Assembly: GCA_025358205.1 (NCBI GenBank) | Contig: JANYKG010000130.1 | Coordinates: forward strand, 1 to 42,200 | DNA: 42,200 bases | Source of the DNA: Armatimonadota bacterium | Lineage (GTDB): Bacteria > Armatimonadota > UBA5829 > DTJY01 | Reading direction: 5' to 3' | In this document: positions 21,319 through 29,970 of the stretch, one piece after another | How positions within the stretch are numbered: position 1 is the first letter of the stretch | How the letters are laid out: each line of letters opens with the position of its first letter | The notes under the pieces: model-generated | The model's input: the letters and a program-made list of their open reading frames with translations, nothing else | Told to the model about the DNA's origin: nothing | The model's database searches: none | Made by a program: the position numbers and the translations under genes

Positions 21319-22296
21319 CTACTCTTTGGTTCTCTGCCTCGATGCAAAGGTGTCCGCCATCACCGCCAGCAGCAGCGTCGCGCCGAGTACGAAGTCAATC
21401 CAGTTCAGTTCCACCCCGAGCAGATTGATGGAACTCACGATGATCGCCATGAGCAGCGCGCCGAGGAACGAGCCGAACACCGAGCCGACTCCGCCCTTCA
21501 GACTCGCGCCGCCGATGATGACCGCGGAAATCACGCGGAGTTCCAGCCCCTTGCCCGCCGAGGTTGACGCCGAACCCAGCCGTGCCGTGACGATGATCCC
21601 GGCGAGGGCCGCGAGCATCCCGGTCAGCGCATAGTTGAATACCTTCATCTTCTTGACGTTGATGCCGGAGAGGACCGCCGCTTTCTCGTTCGCGCCGATG
21701 TAGTAGTTCTGTCGGAAGAATCGCCCCCTCCTCAGCAGGAAATCGCCGACCGCGACCAGCAGGATGGATATGATGATAGGGTACTGGATGTTGAACAGAC
21801 TGCCCTGCCCGATGGCGGTGAACGATGCAGGCAGCCCGGAGATGTTTCTGCCGTCGGACACCACCATCAGCATACCGCGCGCAAGGCTCATCGTGCCTAG
21901 CGTGGTGATGAACGGGTTGATGCCGATCTCCGCGATGATCCAGCCGTTTATCAGCCCGATGAGCACGCCGACCGCAAGGCCGAGCAAGATGGCAAGTGGG
22001 ACCGGCAGCCCGAGGTTAAGCCAGATCGCGGTAGTCGCCCCGGAGAGCGCCATCGTGGAGCCGACGGACATATCGAATCCGCCTGAGACCATGAGCAGCG
22101 TCATCCCGATTGCGATGATGCTCTGATCGGCCAGCGCCAGGAGTATCGCCGAGGTGTTCTCGCGCGACATGAACTCCGGCACCGCGTAGACCATGGCTAT
22201 CACGCCGAGCACGATGATGTAGATGATCATGAACTCACGGCGGTCGGTTATGCGCATCATCTTAGCGGCTATGTTGTTCTTAACTCGATTGCCCAT
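21319..22296 (-). CDS. sugar ABC transporter permease, RbsC-type
   Basis: 325 aa with about nine to ten hydrophobic segments. Family hallmarks: FDMSVGSTMALSGATTAIW, GLINGWIIAEIGINPFITTLGTMSLARGM, ISAVIIGGASLKGGVGSVFGSFLGALLM, the conserved permease blocks of the ribose/xylose/galactose group. The start has GAGGG five bases upstream. It forms the membrane channel, presumably as a homodimer, with the ATPase encoded just upstream (57-bp gap with a hairpin) and the binding protein at the head of the operon. Confidence 0.94.
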   Translation of the reverse strand: MGNRVKNNIAAKMMRITDRREFMIIYIIVLGVIAMVYAVPEFMSRENTSAILLALADQSIIAIGMTLLMVSGGFDMSVGSTMALSGATTAIWLNLGLPVPLAILLGLAVGVLIGLINGWIIAEIGINPFITTLGTMSLARGMLMVVSDGRNISGLPASFTAIGQGSLFNIQYPIIISILLVAVGDFLLRRGRFFRQNYYIGANEKAAVLSGINVKKMKVFNYALTGMLAALAGIIVTARLGSASTSAGKGLELRVISAVIIGGASLKGGVGSVFGSFLGALLMAIIVSSINLLGVELNWIDFVLGATLLLAVMADTFASRQRTKE

Positions 22297-22320
22297 TCTA
22301 TCCCTCGAATATTATGATAA

Positions 22321-22370
22321 GTGATGAGTGATGAGTGAGCTGCTGAGTGAAGTTCACTCTTCACTCAGCA
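22321..22370. repeat. heptamer repeats and hairpin at the ATPase/permease junction
   Basis: GTGATGA repeated twice plus GTGA (22321-22338), then a perfect 12-bp stem, TGCTGAGTGAAG (22341-22352) with CTTCACTCAGCA (22359-22370), six-base loop. The hairpin spans the stop codon of the ATPase gene, so part of it encodes that protein's C-terminus. Confidence 0.7.
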
Positions 22371-23862
22371 CGCCCGATGCAACTGCAATCACTTTCTCCT
22401 CGGTTGCTTCTTCGCCGGTGAACTCCGCCGCGATCCTGCCCTCGCGCATCACCAGTATCCGGTCGCTCATGCCCAGGATCTCCGGCAGGTCCGACGAGAT
22501 CAGGAGTATGGAAACTCCCTCGGCGGCCAGTCCGCGCAGCATACGGTAGATATCGCTCTTTGCGCCCACGTCCACGCCACGCGTCGGTTCATCCGCAATG
22601 AGCAGCTTGGGTTTGATGCCTACCCACATGGAGAGCAGCACCTTCTGCTGGTTACCGCCTGAGAGCAGCCCGACGCTTTGATTGACATCAGGTGTAACGA
22701 TGTTGAACCGTTTCCTGAAGTCCTCCGCGAACTCCGTGACCGCGTTCTCGTCCATCAACCCCGCCCGTCCGCCGAACCGCGAGAGGCTGGGCGCGGCGCA
22801 GTTGTCCCGCACGGACATGTCCAGGAACAGCCCGTCGTCCTTGCGGTTCTCTGTGAGGTAGGCGATACCGTTCGCGATGGCGTCCTCGGGGCTGGTGATC
22901 GTCAACTCGCCGTCGTTAAGGTGGAATCTCGCCTCACCAAGCGGCTCAAGACCGAATATCGCACGTCCAAGTTCGGTTCGTCCGGCGCCCGCAAGTCCGG
23001 CGACGCCGACAATCTCGCCTGCTCTGACAGACAGGTTGACGTCGGCTGTTTCAAACCGGAACCGCTCCTCTCCGATAGCGGATTTCCGGCTGCCGTACAT
23101 GTCCGCCAACTCGCGCCCGACCATCTTCACGACCAGTTCGTTCTCCGTCACGTCCGAGACCTGGCACGTTTCAACAATCTTGCCGTCGCGCAGGACGGTT
23201 ACCCGGTCGGCGAGATCGAACACCTCGGCCAGGTGGTGCGAGATGTAGATCACCGACTGGCCGTTCTCTCTCATGCGCCGCACGTTTCGGTACAGCATCT
23301 CGGTTTCGGAGGCGGTCAGGGAGGAGGTCGGTTCGTCCAGCACAAGTACCCGTGGGTTCTGCGCCATCGCCTTGAGTATCTCGACCACCTGCCGTTTCGC
23401 GGTGGAAAGCTCGGCGACAAGCGTCTCAGGCGAGATATCCCAGTCGAACAGATCGAGCATCTCCTTCGTGTCGTTGTGGAGCGCGCACCAATCTATCAAC
23501 CCGAACGCGCCGATGGGCTGGCGGTTGGCAAAGATGTTCTCCGCGATGCTCAGGTTTTCGGAGAGGCTGAACTCCTGGTAAACCACGCTGATCCCGTGGA
23601 GCGCGGCCTGGTGGGTGTCAGCAAGTGTGACTGCCTCACCGCTCAGTAGAATCGCGCCCGAGTCCGGTTGGTAGACCCCGCCGAGTACGTGCATGAGCGT
23701 ACTCTTGCCCGCGCCGTTTTCGCCGACGAGCGCATGCACCTCGCCCTTCTCCAGTTCGAAGGAGACGTTGTCGAGCGCTCGCACGCCGGGGAAGGTCTTC
23801 ACTATCTCGCGCGCGAAGAGCAGCGGACTGGTTTTACCTTCGATTTTCTTGTTATCTGCCAT
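22354..23862 (-). CDS. sugar ABC transporter ATP-binding protein, RbsA/MglA/XylG-type
   Basis: 502 aa, the double-ATPase layout of this family. First domain: Walker A GENGAGKST, AELSTAKRQVVEI, Walker B VLVLDEPTSSL. Second domain: the usual degenerate P-loop VAGLAGAGRTELG, signature LLSGGNQQKV, Walker B LLIADEPTRGVDVG. It powers sugar uptake with the downstream permease. There is no strong ribosome-binding site before the ATG. Instead a 105-bp inverted-repeat element (23876-23980) lies right upstream, so its expression relative to the binding protein may depend on that element. Confidence 0.95.
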   Translation of the reverse strand: MADNKKIEGKTSPLLFAREIVKTFPGVRALDNVSFELEKGEVHALVGENGAGKSTLMHVLGGVYQPDSGAILLSGEAVTLADTHQAALHGISVVYQEFSLSENLSIAENIFANRQPIGAFGLIDWCALHNDTKEMLDLFDWDISPETLVAELSTAKRQVVEILKAMAQNPRVLVLDEPTSSLTASETEMLYRNVRRMRENGQSVIYISHHLAEVFDLADRVTVLRDGKIVETCQVSDVTENELVVKMVGRELADMYGSRKSAIGEERFRFETADVNLSVRAGEIVGVAGLAGAGRTELGRAIFGLEPLGEARFHLNDGELTITSPEDAIANGIAYLTENRKDDGLFLDMSVRDNCAAPSLSRFGGRAGLMDENAVTEFAEDFRKRFNIVTPDVNQSVGLLSGGNQQKVLLSMWVGIKPKLLIADEPTRGVDVGAKSDIYRMLRGLAAEGVSILLISSDLPEILGMSDRILVMREGRIAAEFTGEEATEEKVIAVASGVLSEE

Positions 23863-23875
23863 GGTTAGCTATGTT

Positions 23876-23980
23876 CTTTGGAGTGCGGTCGCGCAGTCGC
23901 AGACGGAACTGCCGCTTTGGCTTGTCTGTTGTCCGCATGCAAAGCGAAAGCTCCATTTCATTCCGCGTTCGCACTCCAAG
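23876..23980. repeat. inverted-repeat element inside the ABC operon (GGAGTGCGGT family)
   Basis: Terminal arms CTTTGGAGTGCG (23876-23887) and CGCACTCCAAG (23970-23980) pair, with CGCG pairing continuing inward. The interior has GCCGCTTTGGCTT opposite AAAGCGAAAGC, so the whole spacer can fold. GGAGTGCGGT and CCGCTTTG recur at the end of the window (42126-42200). It looks like a small non-coding dispersed repeat (MITE- or REP-like) that fills the 123-bp gap between binding-protein and ATPase genes. Confidence 0.65.
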
Positions 23981-23985
23981 GGCAT

Positions 23986-24993
23986 CTACTTCCTCAGGAA
24001 ATACTTGTAGTTGGATTTGTCCACGATGATGACGCCGGTGTCCACGTAATACGGCGCGGCTGAGACCCCGGCGGTCTTGTTGTCGCTGGTGATAGGCACA
24101 TTCTGGTTCGCAAGGTTGTACAGAATCTGCACCGCGTAGAACGGCATGATCGCTGTGCGCTGGGCCACTGCCGCGCTTATTACGCCCTTGCTGATCTGCT
24201 CCAGCACGGCGTTGTCTCGGTCCATTGCCACTATCTTGACCTTGCCCGCCAGTTTTGCCTCTTTGACGGCGGTCGATGCACCCTGTCCTCCTGCCGCCTC
24301 CACGCACCCGATTCCGGCCAGATCAGGGTTCTTCCTCAGGACTGCCGTTGCCACCTGAGCGGCGATAACAGCATCGGACTGAGTGTCAACGATCTGTACA
24401 ATCGTGATGCCGGGGAACTTGGCGAGGGCGTCCTTGTAGCCGCTGATGCGCTCTTCGAGGTTCGACTGTCCAACCTTTGTCATGAGCGCGACCTTGCCCT
24501 TGCCGCCTATCAGTTCCGCGAGCTTGGTGCCACCTTCGACGCCCGCCTTGTAGTTGCCGGTACCGACAAACGCTATCCGCTTGGAGTCCGGCAGGTCGGC
24601 ATCAACCGTGACCACCGGGATGCCTTTCTCCACGGCCTTGTTGATGATTGGGGTCAGCGCCGGCTCGAAGCCCACAACCACGATGCCTTTGAGGCCCTTC
24701 TTCGCCATCGCCTGCTCGAACGCGGTGATCATCGCTGGCATGTCGTACTCCGCCGGGCCGACGTACTCGGTCCGCACGCCCAGCGCCTCGCCCGCGAGCT
24801 TCATGCCCAGCTTGTGGTCATAGAAGTAGTCCAGGTTGCCGAGCGCGGACACCTCAACGTAGAGCTGATCCATGTGCGCCGCGCCAGCCTTCTGCGCACC
24901 GGGCTGCCCGGCGGACTCGCTGTTCCGTTTGGCGATGGTCGTCGCGGCCATCACGATTGCGAGCAGGAACATGGGAATCAAGAGCTTCTTCAT
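23986..24993 (-). CDS. periplasmic sugar-binding protein of the RbsB family
   Basis: 335 aa. Signal peptide MKKLLIPMFLLAIVMAATTIA with no lipobox cysteine. Type I periplasmic binding fold: YVEVSALGNLDYFYDHKLGMKLAGEALG, GIVVVGFEPALTPIINKAVEKGIPVVTVDADLPDSKR, AFVGTGNYKAGVEGG, GIGCVEAAGGQGASTAVKEA. It captures a sugar for the ATPase and permease encoded downstream. The ATG has GGAGG five bases upstream. As the first gene of a five-gene minus-strand operon (binding protein, ATPase, permease, GH2, glycyl radical enzyme) it has a good promoter at 25029-25058. Confidence 0.94.
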   Translation of the reverse strand: MKKLLIPMFLLAIVMAATTIAKRNSESAGQPGAQKAGAAHMDQLYVEVSALGNLDYFYDHKLGMKLAGEALGVRTEYVGPAEYDMPAMITAFEQAMAKKGLKGIVVVGFEPALTPIINKAVEKGIPVVTVDADLPDSKRIAFVGTGNYKAGVEGGTKLAELIGGKGKVALMTKVGQSNLEERISGYKDALAKFPGITIVQIVDTQSDAVIAAQVATAVLRKNPDLAGIGCVEAAGGQGASTAVKEAKLAGKVKIVAMDRDNAVLEQISKGVISAAVAQRTAIMPFYAVQILYNLANQNVPITSDNKTAGVSAAPYYVDTGVIIVDKSNYKYFLRK

Positions 24994-25440: not shown

Positions 25441-26853
25441 CTACTCCTCTTTTTGGGCAAACACGGGTATCTTGATCTCCGATTCGTCGTCATCATTGGT
25501 GTGAATGACGACCATACCGTGGATGAAACCAATCGGCGCATCGTCTTTCAGTGTGGCGATAATCACGTATTGTCCCTTGCTGTCTGCGCTGGATGTGACG
25601 TCTAAGTAGCGGAATGGGCTATCAAGTCTCTCTATCGTCAGTGGATACTTTGCTGTACTAGAGATGGTGATGGTTTTGGACGCGGCCTGCCCCTTCTTAA
25701 CAACGCCCAGGAAGAACTGTTTCGGGAAGGCTGCTAGGTTTCCGGCGACCTGTGCGGTGACCGGAATTGTCACTACTGGCTCCTTTGGATGGTTGCTGTA
25801 GATCATGATGTTGCTGCCGTACTGGCCAAATGGGGTGCTAGAGAGAAGTTCGACCTTTACGTGATAGACCAATCCATCGCTATTGTCGCGCGTTAGGGTG
25901 GTCCGCAAGTACTTGGAGTCACTCGTGACCTTAGTGACCACGAGAGAGCTGTTGCCTGGGTCTTCGATGGAGATATCGGCTGTAGCTCCAGAATGTCTTC
26001 GCAGGCTTCCGAGATAGAGCTTGCGCGTTGAGAAAGTCAAATATAGAGGCCGGACGAACCCGCCGATGCCAAATTGAACGGAGGGCGATACTGCATCGTT
26101 GGAGTGAACATAGACTGTTTGAGACTGGCCGCCGTCTCTGCCGCTACTATCGAACTCCACAGTTAGCTTCGCATTGCCGCCTGGCGGGATGCGTGTGCCA
26201 GCGGACAGGAATGCTTGCGTGCAGGAGCAGGTAGTCTCCACCCGCGAGATCAGCAAGTCCGCTGTTCCCTTGTTCGCTAGGGTGAAAACATGGCCCGGCC
26301 GGTCTCCGGGCTGAATGTAGCCAAGGTCATACGTGTACGCGTCAGCCCGGAGGTCCGGACCACTGGTATCTGCTGTTGGCAATGATTCCTTGTCCTTGGC
26401 GATGAACAGCGCAAATCCAGAGTATTGCCGCGAGAAGTCGTCATTTGACATGACAACGGACCTATCCGGAGGGCTCGTCACACTTAGGTTATCGTTATCA
26501 CCTTTAGTGACAACTACAAAATGGTTGCCCCAGAGATGAGCTATGGCCATTGCTGGGTACTTGGTCAGCTCCGTAGAACCAATTTTCATTGCTACACTCT
26601 GGAGACCCTTCGCACTAGCGGCTTTCTGAAGCCCCAGCAGTGACGTGCCCAATTTCTGGTCAAAGTCGCTGATCCCCTTAATATCCGTTATGTCTGTCTT
26701 GACCCCCAGCTGCTCACAGACCATAAGAAGACTCCGGGGGCCGCACATAACGTCGGGAGTCTTTGTGCCGTTTCCGCATTGAGCATATACCATCTGCGAT
26801 AGAATGAGAAGAGCAATGCCAGTTACTATCAGAGCGCGTGCTACGGACTTCAA
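25441..26853 (-). CDS. exported C39-family cysteine peptidase fused to DUF1573-type repeats
   Basis: 470 aa from a TTG start with AAGGAG nine bases upstream. The longer frame from 26925 has an extra 24 residues with no export character. Signal peptide MKSVARALIVTGIALLILSQ, cleavage near VYA-QCG. C39-like domain: Cys37 in DVMCGPRSLL and His111 in HLWGNHFVVVTKG; where the family usually has Asp-Pro this protein reads TSPPD, so the third catalytic residue is uncertain. From about residue 165 it has DUF1573/Ig-like beta repeats (YDLGYIQPGDRPGHVFTLANKG, CSCTQAFL, KLTVEFDSSG) up to the end. C39 peptidases cut leaders after Gly-Gly, usually as part of ABC exporters; this one has no ABC domain and would act outside the cytoplasm. 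It is in line with a gene encoding a double-glycine leader. Confidence 0.88.
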   Translation of the reverse strand: MKSVARALIVTGIALLILSQMVYAQCGNGTKTPDVMCGPRSLLMVCEQLGVKTDITDIKGISDFDQKLGTSLLGLQKAASAKGLQSVAMKIGSTELTKYPAMAIAHLWGNHFVVVTKGDNDNLSVTSPPDRSVVMSNDDFSRQYSGFALFIAKDKESLPTADTSGPDLRADAYTYDLGYIQPGDRPGHVFTLANKGTADLLISRVETTCSCTQAFLSAGTRIPPGGNAKLTVEFDSSGRDGGQSQTVYVHSNDAVSPSVQFGIGGFVRPLYLTFSTRKLYLGSLRRHSGATADISIEDPGNSSLVVTKVTSDSKYLRTTLTRDNSDGLVYHVKVELLSSTPFGQYGSNIMIYSNHPKEPVVTIPVTAQVAGNLAAFPKQFFLGVVKKGQAASKTITISSTAKYPLTIERLDSPFRYLDVTSSADSKGQYVIIATLKDDAPIGFIHGMVVIHTNDDDESEIKIPVFAQKEE

Positions 26854-26925
26854 GAGGGAACTCTCCTTCCTAGTCTCGCGGAAAAGATGGTCACTCGTTA
26901 CATCCTGCCAGCGCTGTGCTGACAA

Positions 26926-26945
26926 GATGAGAGATGAGAGATGAG
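26926..26945. repeat. heptamer repeat (GATGAGA)2-GATGAG
   Basis: Two exact heptamers plus six bases in the spacer between the LolA-like and C39 genes. Same unit length as the repeats at 22321 and 32149. Confidence 0.6.
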
Positions 26946-26951
26946 TGCTGT

Positions 26952-26984
26952 CCAGGGAGAATGACCGCGGAGCATCCTCCCTGG
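26952..26984 (-). terminator. stem-loop after the LolA-like gene
   Basis: CCAGGGAG (26952-26959) and CTCCCTGG (26977-26984) form an 8-bp stem, 10 bases beyond the stop codon. No U-run follows, so it may attenuate read-through into the C39 gene instead of ending transcription. Confidence 0.4.
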
Positions 26985-26994
26985 TGAATTTGCC

Positions 26995-27903
26995 TTACTT
27001 GACTACGTATGACATGGGCTTCTTTGCGCCAACAGGTAGCGTAAAGACCTTTGTGCCGGCCGGGAACGTTACGGTGAATTCGCTGTCTTCAATCTTCGTC
27101 CCAGCACTGGCTTTGATGACGCTCAGATTTAGCCCCGTACCATCGGCGTACTGAATTACATGTTTCATAGGGAGGAATACGTTGCCGCCCAGGGGCTTGT
27201 AGTCATCGAATCTCCTGGTTATCTCTTCACTCACGCTTCCATCCTTTTCGTATCGCTCCACTATGAGCCGAGGACATAGGCCTATGTCGGAATCAAGCCA
27301 TACGGTCCAGCCCACGCTTGTCCCATGATTCGTCGCGATGGCCTCCTGCGGGATGTCGACTCGCCAACACATGTGTCCATCTATCTGTTCCTGCTTATCG
27401 GTCACAACGCCCTTAGCGATTCGCTCGATAAGTGGTGCCGCGAGTAACGGGTAGTACACTACGTCTATCATGGGCTGAGAAGTGAATCGGTTAGGGTTAC
27501 CATGGGATATACGGCCTATGGATTTGCCGCTGCCGGCAGACACGCCAACCTGGCGGTTACCGCTAGTAGTTCTGTCGTGAACGCTTTTACTGGAATCCAG
27601 CGCCACCCAACTGCCAGTTGAGTCCATCCGCTCAGATTCCTCCTCAAGCAGCAGATTCGTGGGAGTTCGCAAATATCGAATAGTTGCACGCGTATCCCCT
27701 TTTGTCTGTGTGCCCAACGACACCCAGCTATAGGTGACATCAAGAGACGGCCCACAATTGTCGGCCTGCGCCTGTAGGGCCGCAACGATGAATTCGATGC
27801 TGGGTTGTGCCGACCCAAGCGCTGGAGAAGCCAAGAAAGACGTAGCGACACAGAGCAGAGCAACAAACAAAAGTGTAATGGTCTGAATCTTAGGTTGTTT
27901 CAT
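26995..27903 (-). CDS. exported LolA/RseB-like protein of unknown role
   Basis: 302 aa from the ATG with AAAGGAG upstream (MKQPKIQTITLLFVALLCVA; cleavage near ALG-SAQPS). The longer frame adds 13 residues without a ribosome-binding site. The mature part alternates beta strands as in LolA or RseB-like half-barrels: TRATIRYLRTPTNLLLEEE, VDIPQEAIATNHGTSVGWTVWLDSDIGLCPRLIVERYEKDGS, YKPLGGNVFLPMKHVIQYADG. Proteins of this type carry lipoproteins or sense envelope state. I infer the fold from pattern only. It follows the Cys-rich double-glycine gene by 20 bp and precedes the C39 peptidase, so it may be a chaperone or carrier for that product. Confidence 0.75.
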   Translation of the reverse strand: MKQPKIQTITLLFVALLCVATSFLASPALGSAQPSIEFIVAALQAQADNCGPSLDVTYSWVSLGTQTKGDTRATIRYLRTPTNLLLEEESERMDSTGSWVALDSSKSVHDRTTSGNRQVGVSAGSGKSIGRISHGNPNRFTSQPMIDVVYYPLLAAPLIERIAKGVVTDKQEQIDGHMCWRVDIPQEAIATNHGTSVGWTVWLDSDIGLCPRLIVERYEKDGSVSEEITRRFDDYKPLGGNVFLPMKHVIQYADGTGLNLSVIKASAGTKIEDSEFTVTFPAGTKVFTLPVGAKKPMSYVVK

Positions 27904-27923
27904 GTTATATTCTCCTTTCGGTG

Positions 27924-28349
27924 TTACATTGGATCTGGACACGTAGTTCCTGTCGCAGTCTGCTTGTCGCAGGATCCTCCGGGGTCAGACCAGACACAGC
28001 TACCGGTGATGCGGGCGACCGTCTTATATGCCTTGCCGCAACCGCCCGGTACACTGCCGCCAGGAGTACACGACGACAGGTTCTCACCAGGTGCCTGAGC
28101 GCATGATGACGTAGTAGCACCTCCCGCATTACAGCCAATGGGACAGTCTCCGACAGCGTCACACCCCCATTGTCCGTTTAAGTCGCATGGCAAGTCGAGA
28201 ACACAGGGGTAAGTGGGATAGCATCCGCCTTGAATGCTTTCCATGTCAGCGGTAGATAGGATCGCTGATGCCCACCCACCGTTCATCACCAACATTACAA
28301 CCAGGGACACCAACAGGAGCCGCAACAGACCTAGTGCTTTTGTTTTCAT
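27924..28349 (-). CDS. small Cys-rich protein with Sec signal plus double-glycine leader
   Basis: 141 aa from the ATG with GAGG six bases upstream (the ATG at 28361 has no ribosome-binding site). Residues 1-29 are a Sec signal peptide (RLLLVSLVVMLVMNGGWASA). Residues 31-42 read LSTADMESIQGG, which matches the bacteriocin leader consensus LSxxELxxIxGG at every position (Leu -12, Ser -11, Asp for Glu -8, Met for Leu -7, Ile -4, Gly -2, Gly -1). After Gly-Gly the chain starts with Cys43 and has 12 cysteines in about 99 residues (CYPTYPC, CDAVGDCPIGC, PGGC). The predicted product is a disulfide-rich exported peptide matured by the C39 peptidase of the same operon. Target or activity is unknown: toxin, signal or structural peptide are all possible. 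Confidence 0.78.
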   Translation of the reverse strand: MKTKALGLLRLLLVSLVVMLVMNGGWASAILSTADMESIQGGCYPTYPCVLDLPCDLNGQWGCDAVGDCPIGCNAGGATTSSCAQAPGENLSSCTPGGSVPGGCGKAYKTVARITGSCVWSDPGGSCDKQTATGTTCPDPM

Positions 28350-28431
28350 ATCTAACCTCATTTATGTGATGTTTTGGTATTCGACACCTTAGGGTGATCG
28401 CCTGCATGTCGCCGTGAGAGCAATCTAGTCC

Positions 28432-29970
28432 CTACTGCACTTCGCTCCACAGAGACAGCATTGCTTCGGCTTGCTTGCCTTTTCCCGTGTCCGGGTACTT
28501 GTCCGCTATTTCCTGCATTAGCCGCCGCGCTGCGTTCCTCATGTTTGTTTCCCAATAGCATCGAGCAAGTCCGTACATGCTGTCTACCCGCACAGCGTCT
28601 AGCAGATTATCTTCACGTGTCACCTCCTTAAACAGGCGGCTTGCTTCCTTATAGTTGCCCGCCTGCAAATAGTCATTAGCCACTCTGCAGAGCATAGCCG
28701 CGTCATGCGTACTCCTCGCCTGCGCCTCCATCATTGGTGCGCCCTGGTCCAGCTCGCCCATCATCCCGTATGACTCGTAGATGAGTTCTACGGCCGTTGG
28801 AACTAGCTCGGACCGCCTGCCAGCGGCAACCTGAGCAAGGATCTGCTTCTCTGCTTCGATGCAACCCTCATAGTCTTTGGGACCGTATAGCAGGACCGCT
28901 CCCCTGACTAGCAGATGCTCGTCCCACATCTCTGGCCTATTTTTGAAATACACTTCGATCGCGTCCAGGGCTTCTTGGCCTTTGCCTAGATTGAACATGC
29001 ATTCGCTCAGGAATATCTGTCCCTTCCTGATCTCCCACCGCCTAGGTGACGTGTCTATAACCTTTCTGAACAGCGGCTCTGCCTTCTCGTACTGCTTGTC
29101 CAACAGATAGTACCATCCGAGCCGCCACTGCCAGGCGGAGTAGTTGGGATACTCTTGAGTAAGCTTCTCTGCCAGAGTGATGGCTTTGCTGCGCTCCCCG
29201 ATATCAGAATGGCAATCAAGCAAAAAACGTTCTATGAAGGCGAAATTGTAGTAATCTTTCCTGGGGCAGAGCTTTGCGGCAGCGTCAAGATGCTGGATGG
29301 CCTTGTCGTAGTTCTGCTGTTCTCTATAGCCTCGTCCAATCTCCATTTCGCACATGTATGCGATCGCCGGATACTTTTTGATTAGCGATGATCCCAACTC
29401 ATCGACGTCTTTCCACCGCTTTTCCTCCCGCAAGCAATGCAGCAGCCAGTAGTTCGCGTCCGCAAGATCATCGTTGCTGTCCGCCTTGCCAAGCTGCACC
29501 GCCTTCCTCAGATCTAGCATTGCAGCCGAGTACTCATGTTTGAAGCACCTACGCCTTCCTACGGTGTAGTAGACTGTCGATAGTTGGTCGCGATAGTCTC
29601 CCTCTACTCGCTTGCGGAGAGACTGATATTTGTCGCTCTGGCCCTGCGCAAGGTAGTGATCCATAGCGCGGAGCCTCATCTCCCGTTCAGGGACAGAGCT
29701 TCGGTGTGTTCCTTGCAGTTCGTCAATGGACCGCCGAGCGTCGTCCCATCTGCCAAGTAGATCGTAGCACTGGCTTATCATCAGTAAAGCACGCGGGGCG
29801 GTCACAGGATCGCAGGCGATTACACTTTCCAGGACGGGGATGGCATCGTTGGCATACTCCAGATTGATAAGGTATCTCACACTATCTAGGTCAGACGGCG
29901 CAGAAACCTGCTCTGCCACTGCACCACCGAGAACCAAACACACTAATATCAGGCCAACTATGACTCGCAC
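28432..29970 (-). CDS. exported TPR-repeat protein
   Basis: 512 aa from a GTG preceded by GGAGG (MRVIVGLILVCLVLGGAVA-EQ signal peptide); the GTG at 29985 lies on the ribosome-binding site itself. At least eight tetratricopeptide-like units: LMISQCYDLLGRWDDARRSI, LHCLREEKRWKDVDELG, EIGRGYREQQNYDKAIQHLD, GWYYLLDKQYEKAEPLFRKV, SECMFNLGKGQEALDAIEVY, YGLARCYWETNMRNAARRLM. TPR domains bind other proteins and often hold envelope complexes together. It is the first gene of the operon that continues with the Cys-rich, LolA-like and C39-DUF1573 proteins (82-bp gap to the Cys-rich gene). It is a candidate scaffold for that system. Confidence 0.85.
   Translation of the reverse strand: MRVIVGLILVCLVLGGAVAEQVSAPSDLDSVRYLINLEYANDAIPVLESVIACDPVTAPRALLMISQCYDLLGRWDDARRSIDELQGTHRSSVPEREMRLRAMDHYLAQGQSDKYQSLRKRVEGDYRDQLSTVYYTVGRRRCFKHEYSAAMLDLRKAVQLGKADSNDDLADANYWLLHCLREEKRWKDVDELGSSLIKKYPAIAYMCEMEIGRGYREQQNYDKAIQHLDAAAKLCPRKDYYNFAFIERFLLDCHSDIGERSKAITLAEKLTQEYPNYSAWQWRLGWYYLLDKQYEKAEPLFRKVIDTSPRRWEIRKGQIFLSECMFNLGKGQEALDAIEVYFKNRPEMWDEHLLVRGAVLLYGPKDYEGCIEAEKQILAQVAAGRRSELVPTAVELIYESYGMMGELDQGAPMMEAQARSTHDAAMLCRVANDYLQAGNYKEASRLFKEVTREDNLLDAVRVDSMYGLARCYWETNMRNAARRLMQEIADKYPDTGKGKQAEAMLSLWSEVQ

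Follow-up and report, generated by a model that had tools for sequence, protein, structure and literature searches.

A cassette in Armatimonadota predicted to mature Sec-exported, double-glycine Cys-rich proteins with an extracytoplasmic C39 peptidase

Textbooks treat C39 peptidases and double-glycine leaders as components of ATP-binding cassette (ABC) exporters, where the leader is cut on the cytoplasmic side. Here we describe a four-gene cassette at positions 25441-29970 of a 42,200-nucleotide stretch of DNA from an Armatimonadota bacterium (assembly GCA_025358205.1, contig JANYKG010000130.1; hereafter the window), in which a small Cys-rich protein with a double-glycine leader and a C39 peptidase both have predicted Sec signal peptides. 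We read it as a system for Sec export, signal peptidase cleavage and then extracytoplasmic C39 cleavage, with no ABC exporter, and put the probability of this reading, in which the C39 cut is predicted, at roughly 0.78. A C39 peptidase outside the cytoplasm has a precedent in FapD, the periplasmic enzyme of the Fap amyloid system in Pseudomonas. Fap secretion depends on the Cys of FapD, the substrate of the enzyme was unknown, and FapD-type C39 peptidases were described as a class yet to be characterised (PMC5557850, PMC6173800). Like FapD, the window enzyme has its C39 domain behind a Sec signal peptide and would be extracytoplasmic with no ABC transporter. FapD, however, has no known canonical double-glycine substrate and works with the FapF pore, whereas the window cassette has a predicted double-glycine substrate, immunoglobulin-like (Ig) domains, and partner proteins with a LolA fold and tetratricopeptide repeats (TPR). 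The match to the FapD equivalog NF058616 is 12.7 bits against a cut-off of 330, and FapF, FapB, FapC and FapE are not among the cassette genes (TPR, Cys-rich, LolA-fold and C39-Ig), no genome-wide search having been made for them.

The C39 domains of ABC exporters read F-15, I-12, L-7 and I-4 of the leader, followed by GG, GA or GS (review PMC10885120). The cassette shares the C39 domain and this leader register (L-12, hydrophobic -7, I/V -4, GG/GA/GS) with the peptidase-containing ABC transporters (PCATs) and ABC-transporter maturation and secretion (AMS) exporters ComA, PCAT1 and LahT, but it lacks an ABC transporter, each partner has a predicted Sec signal peptide, and the leader would be exposed by signal peptidase instead of forming the precursor N-terminus. 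A PCAT is an ABC transporter fused to a cytoplasmic C39 domain; the window enzyme has no ABC domain and begins with a predicted signal peptide. PA2778/PA2779, which we take to be a C39-TPR protein and an exported small protein, would be alike in placing an exported C39 peptidase beside an exported small protein. NCBIfam C39_PA2778 matched only the TPR part of the cassette TPR protein, far under its cut-off, and a literature search on PA2778/PA2779 found nothing. Among the papers searched, none combined DUF1573 and C39, and the only one to join Rhs with ‘C39 peptidase’ concerns type VI effectors. The sequence-only reading that preceded this analysis had called the layout undescribed, which is too broad, since extracytoplasmic C39 is already known from FapD (PMC5557850); what appears new is the cassette, the pairing with canonical double-glycine, Sec-exported substrates, and the cis and trans forms with rearrangement hotspot (RHS) proteins described below. 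If the reading is right, the double-glycine code would be read outside the cytoplasm after Sec export. The substrate of FapD has been an open question since 2017, and for the exported C39 enzymes of the Armatimonadota system both substrates and cut sites can be predicted.

The four genes lie in the same direction on the minus strand, at the coordinates given by the sequence-only reading, whose residue numbers also hold, and each product has a predicted N-terminal signal peptide. First comes an exported TPR protein (28432..29970; GTG start at 29970; TPR family matches), then the Cys-rich protein of 141 residues (27924..28349; ATG at 28349, stop at 27924), an exported LolA-fold protein (26995..27903; ATG at 27903) and a 470-residue exported C39 peptidase with Ig-like (DUF1573/HYDIN-type) domains (25441..26853), whose TTG start at 26853 has AAGGAG upstream. 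Because the gaps between them are only 82, 20 and 141 bases in order, the four genes fit an operon.

The Cys-rich protein begins with a predicted Sec signal peptide (residues 1-29, MKTKALG...WASA; 28263..28349, minus strand), recognised by eye and by a hydrophobic-core score, with an MKTK n-region, a long hydrophobic core and a cut expected between ASA and I. Residues 31-42 (28224..28259, minus strand), LSTADMESIQGG, follow directly and form the proposed LSxxELxxIxGG leader; at 27.5 bits it is the sole motif match in the window. Its register, with L at -12, M at -7, I at -4 and GG at -2/-1, agrees with the ComA/LahT rule. Since the leader begins one residue past the point where signal peptidase is predicted to cut, that first cleavage would uncover the second signal. 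The core (C43-M141, residues 43-141; 27924..28223 with the stop codon, minus strand) has 12 Cys and starts at the residue directly after GG. As in double-glycine peptides, an LSxxELxxIxGG leader stands before the core, but there the leader is the precursor N-terminus with no Sec signal peptide, and here a predicted signal peptide precedes it. No Pfam or NCBIfam family covers the Cys-rich cores in searches of both libraries, and the bacteriocin family TIGR03949 was rejected as an identity, the leader match of 12.1 bits being under the family cut-off.

The enzyme was confirmed as an exported C39-like peptidase with DUF1573: PF03412 Peptidase_C39 matches residues 61-179 of the 494-residue open reading frame (ORF; E 4.6e-19, 69 bits against a family cut-off of 22), PF07610 DUF1573 matches residues 194-281 (88 bits), and the N-terminus is a predicted signal peptide. 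The C39 domain (26389..26745, minus strand) has the catalytic Cys37 (codon 26743-26745) and His111 (codon 26521-26523; 470-residue numbering). A structure model shows a C39 part followed by Ig-like domains; the fold search with this whole model was dominated by Ig folds, and the C39 domain was placed by sequence, its relatives being ComA, PCAT1 and LahT (ComA and PCAT1 in PDB). The neighbouring protein is LolA-like by fold, with no LolA family Pfam match by sequence: its model (predicted local distance difference test, pLDDT, 88.7) matches outer-membrane lipoprotein-sorting folds (3bk5, E 3.7e-9; LolA and LolB, about 1e-6 to 1e-4; also LprG). LolA-like domains, so called by sequence resemblance only, are fused to C39 in L049, L052 and L070, which ties the LolA-fold gene to the C39 process.

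We propose that the four genes form one maturation cassette. The small protein would leave via Sec, and signal peptidase I would cut after Ala29 and expose a 13-residue N-terminus, the helix that C39 recognises, with GG at its end. Outside the cytoplasm, and with no ABC exporter, the exported C39-Ig protein would then cut after Gly42 and release a mini-protein of 99 residues that is probably rich in disulfides. The LolA-fold and TPR proteins probably hold, carry or receive the precursor or product. The core would diversify while the processing signal stays fixed, and the same exported machinery would also serve RHS-repeat proteins, in trans or as a cis fusion. Such two-step maturation had been suggested from the window alone; leader conservation and the pairing of genes across loci now support it, the cleavage itself still being predicted.

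Orthologous small proteins keep the leader (L-12 in 17/17, G-2 in 15/17, and G or A at -1 in 16/17). Mean pairwise identity among the 17 proteins is 38% in the leader and 22% in the core, or 11% in the core without the shared Cys; it is 20% in the signal peptide. Genome G283 encodes five Cys-rich peptides with signal peptide and double-glycine leader along with only one C39 gene, whose product would therefore process several substrates; across signal peptide and leader the peptide pairs compared are 68-85% identical, against 22-30% in their cores. The pair L047/L048 does not have the leader-conserved, core-variable pattern of G283. A fixed leader with a variable core is the pattern of conotoxins and of families of ribosomally synthesised and post-translationally modified peptides. 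The core changes fast, in conotoxin-like fashion, there are several paralogues to a genome, and RHS proteins share the machinery; we therefore favour, tentatively, an exported effector for antagonism or recognition as the most likely use of the product. It is also possible that the same processing yields a structural or metal-binding envelope protein, the C39 enzyme only licensing assembly as FapD does for the Fap amyloid, a question of product role and not of cleavage. FapD itself is the precedent, LolA-fold and TPR partners are typical envelope-assembly parts, and no immunity gene was recognised; yet the cores of paralogues within one genome diverge strongly while their leaders do not, none of the cassette genes was recognised as encoding a FapF-like outer-membrane pore, and RHS proteins use the same machinery.

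The source genome, which is 97% complete, has exactly one further C39 gene, on contig C101, in an identical gene order: a TPR protein, a Cys-rich protein with signal peptide and LTPMDQASLSGG, a LolA-like lipoprotein and a C39-DUF1573 protein. The Cys-rich protein of this second cassette differs from that of the window, and the two are the sole significant matches to a small-protein profile in the genome. No C39-ABC exporter was found in the source genome, both of its C39 genes being of the exported type. Relatives on named contigs belong to Armatimonadota, and a search with a five-row alignment returned six loci, all from Armatimonadota; searches of plasmids gave mostly ordinary C39-ABC transporters.

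We surveyed 41 loci with the C39 or C39-DUF1573 family, leaving L078 and L079 out of the tally as C39-ABC exporters (L078 is a cNMP-C39-ABC exporter by Pfam, and L079 its close homologue). In 26 of the 39 remaining loci an automatic criterion picked out an ORF that combines a hydrophobic signal core with a motif scoring 12 bits or more. Inspection added six: fusions in L046 and L080, an RHS protein in L082 (LTPLELARIHGA), and weaker motifs in L051 (VSDEEAALVSGL), L066 (MEAGEMKAVTGA) and L074 (VDEEEASSIMVG). The C39 gene is thus paired with an exported or fused double-glycine protein in 32/39 non-ABC loci. The other seven are L044, a DUF1573 fragment without C39, L063 and L067, which lie at contig ends, and L052, L069, L071 and L072. 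All 30 of the 30 ORFs found automatically are on the strand of the C39 gene (one removed match was the C39 gene itself), which mostly lies about 0.8-1.5 kb downstream with mostly one, LolA-like, gene between. A stand-alone exported C39 gene in G065 (L143) likewise has a Cys-rich ORF with signal peptide and LSAEEMKDTGGR upstream. Control DNA from related genomes (386 kb) contained no signal peptide with a motif of at least 12 bits, nor did the rest of the window; this control and the fusion proteins rule out a chance motif. We think it probable, with somewhat less assurance than for the cassette itself, that this is a phylum-wide, ABC-independent route in Armatimonadota with hypervariable Cys-rich mini-proteins and RHS proteins, in trans or in cis, as substrates, and the first C39 system outside the cytoplasm whose substrate code can be recognised. 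It would offer a motif-based route to a large unannotated family of secreted Cys-rich mini-proteins. Separately, L041:12576-15188 (G080:C110) has a second Cys-rich gene with signal peptide and double-glycine leader and its own LolA-like gene; no second C39 gene is nearby, and genome G080 has one C39 domain in all.

Some RHS proteins carry the same motif, which gives the link between C39 and the motif independent support. Secreted TPR-C39-RHS fusions of about 1000-1570 residues have it just behind C39 (LSQQELASAWGG and ISAQEMKLVWGG in L080, LSPEELRNAWGG in L054), and the fusion in L046 has a weak version after C39 (MTASAAMATLGG). Two further fusions, long C39 proteins of G017 fetched as a test, have LSMADLENAWGG and LASAEATSIVGG 10-13 residues past C39, in each case the best match of the whole protein. 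In the trans form, RHS proteins encoded beside exported C39 genes have the motif close to their N-terminus (L053, LSPTEMNAILGG; L081, LTNAEMGRLMGA; L082, LTPLELARIHGA). The system predicts how some secreted RHS proteins are freed from their N-terminal part. Polymorphic RHS toxins with releasing peptidases also combine RHS and a papain-like peptidase in cis, and C39-like is listed there among the toxin domains (Tox-PLC39; PMC3482391), while here C39 precedes RHS with the double-glycine motif between. The fusions bear on whether the motif could act as an amphipathic anchor at the N-terminus or simply result from the composition of the signal peptide, with the C39 enzyme acting on another protein of the operon. 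The motif does directly follow the signal peptide in the small proteins, and its cleavage is predicted; but in the TPR-C39-RHS fusions it stands behind C39 with no signal peptide anywhere near, loci across the phylum repeat the -12/-7/-4/GG register exactly, and the 386 kb control is empty; we regard this explanation as very improbable. In the TPR-C39-RHS fusions at L142:3554-8128 and L046:3318-6305 the stretch after GG is Cys-rich (CCRERDGNDPC...CRCRQG) and resembles the small-protein cores.

The anatomy of the cassette, its recurrence, the leader register, the C39 Cys and His and the cis fusions are observed and are the basis for reading it as a Sec-then-C39 maturation system. Several points weigh against that reading. 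It is from sequence that we infer C39 cleavage after GG, and for all members hydrophobicity was the sole basis for calling signal peptides. Training of the motif matrix used 17 leaders, nearly all from the first loci, so only later loci are independent; among these (L062-L082), 10/19 non-ABC loci pass the threshold and 14/19 do so with inspection. The exported C39 loci L052, L069, L071 and L072 show no substrate. A canonical C39 peptidase has a third catalytic Asp and an oxyanion-hole Gln; in the window protein the third residue is Ser and the Gln is absent from its usual place, with Lys at Cys-6. The third residue is Asp in the paralogue L005 and Asn, Glu or Gly elsewhere, and because it varies, some members could bind rather than cut. 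The exported C39 protein might then be a periplasmic chaperone or tether that holds the double-glycine leader uncut, as the C39-like domain of HlyB holds repeats-in-toxin (RTX) substrates, and catalytically dead copies beside intact ones would suit it. These are C39 domains without the catalytic Cys and His, at L046:6423-7538, adjoining a TPR-C39-RHS fusion with intact C39, and at L065:4819-6270, adjoining an intact C39-DUF1573 gene. We nevertheless consider binding without cutting unlikely: every substrate-associated locus examined retains Cys and His, the predicted cut site (a GG, GA, GS or GT pair) is just as conserved as the binding positions, and periplasmic FapD requires its active-site Cys (PMC5557850).

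Some cassettes have extracytoplasmic function (ECF) sigma factor genes directly upstream (L042, L048), so regulated expression or signalling is also possible. At L048:8879-10357 (G066:C96), a single ORF immediately upstream of a Cys-rich peptide cassette combines a glutaredoxin-like CGDC segment, a weak DsbD-like membrane part and an ECF sigma factor (regions 2 and 4), and could couple redox state to expression. At L042:4153-6493 (G020:C239) an ECF sigma factor gene is followed by the cassette TPR protein, whose N-terminus looks cytoplasmic and which also has a membrane segment, an arrangement resembling an anti-sigma/TPR fusion. Downstream of the window cassette, positions 21319-24993 encode a sugar-type ABC transporter (permease, ATPase and binding protein) that looks ordinary from its translations.

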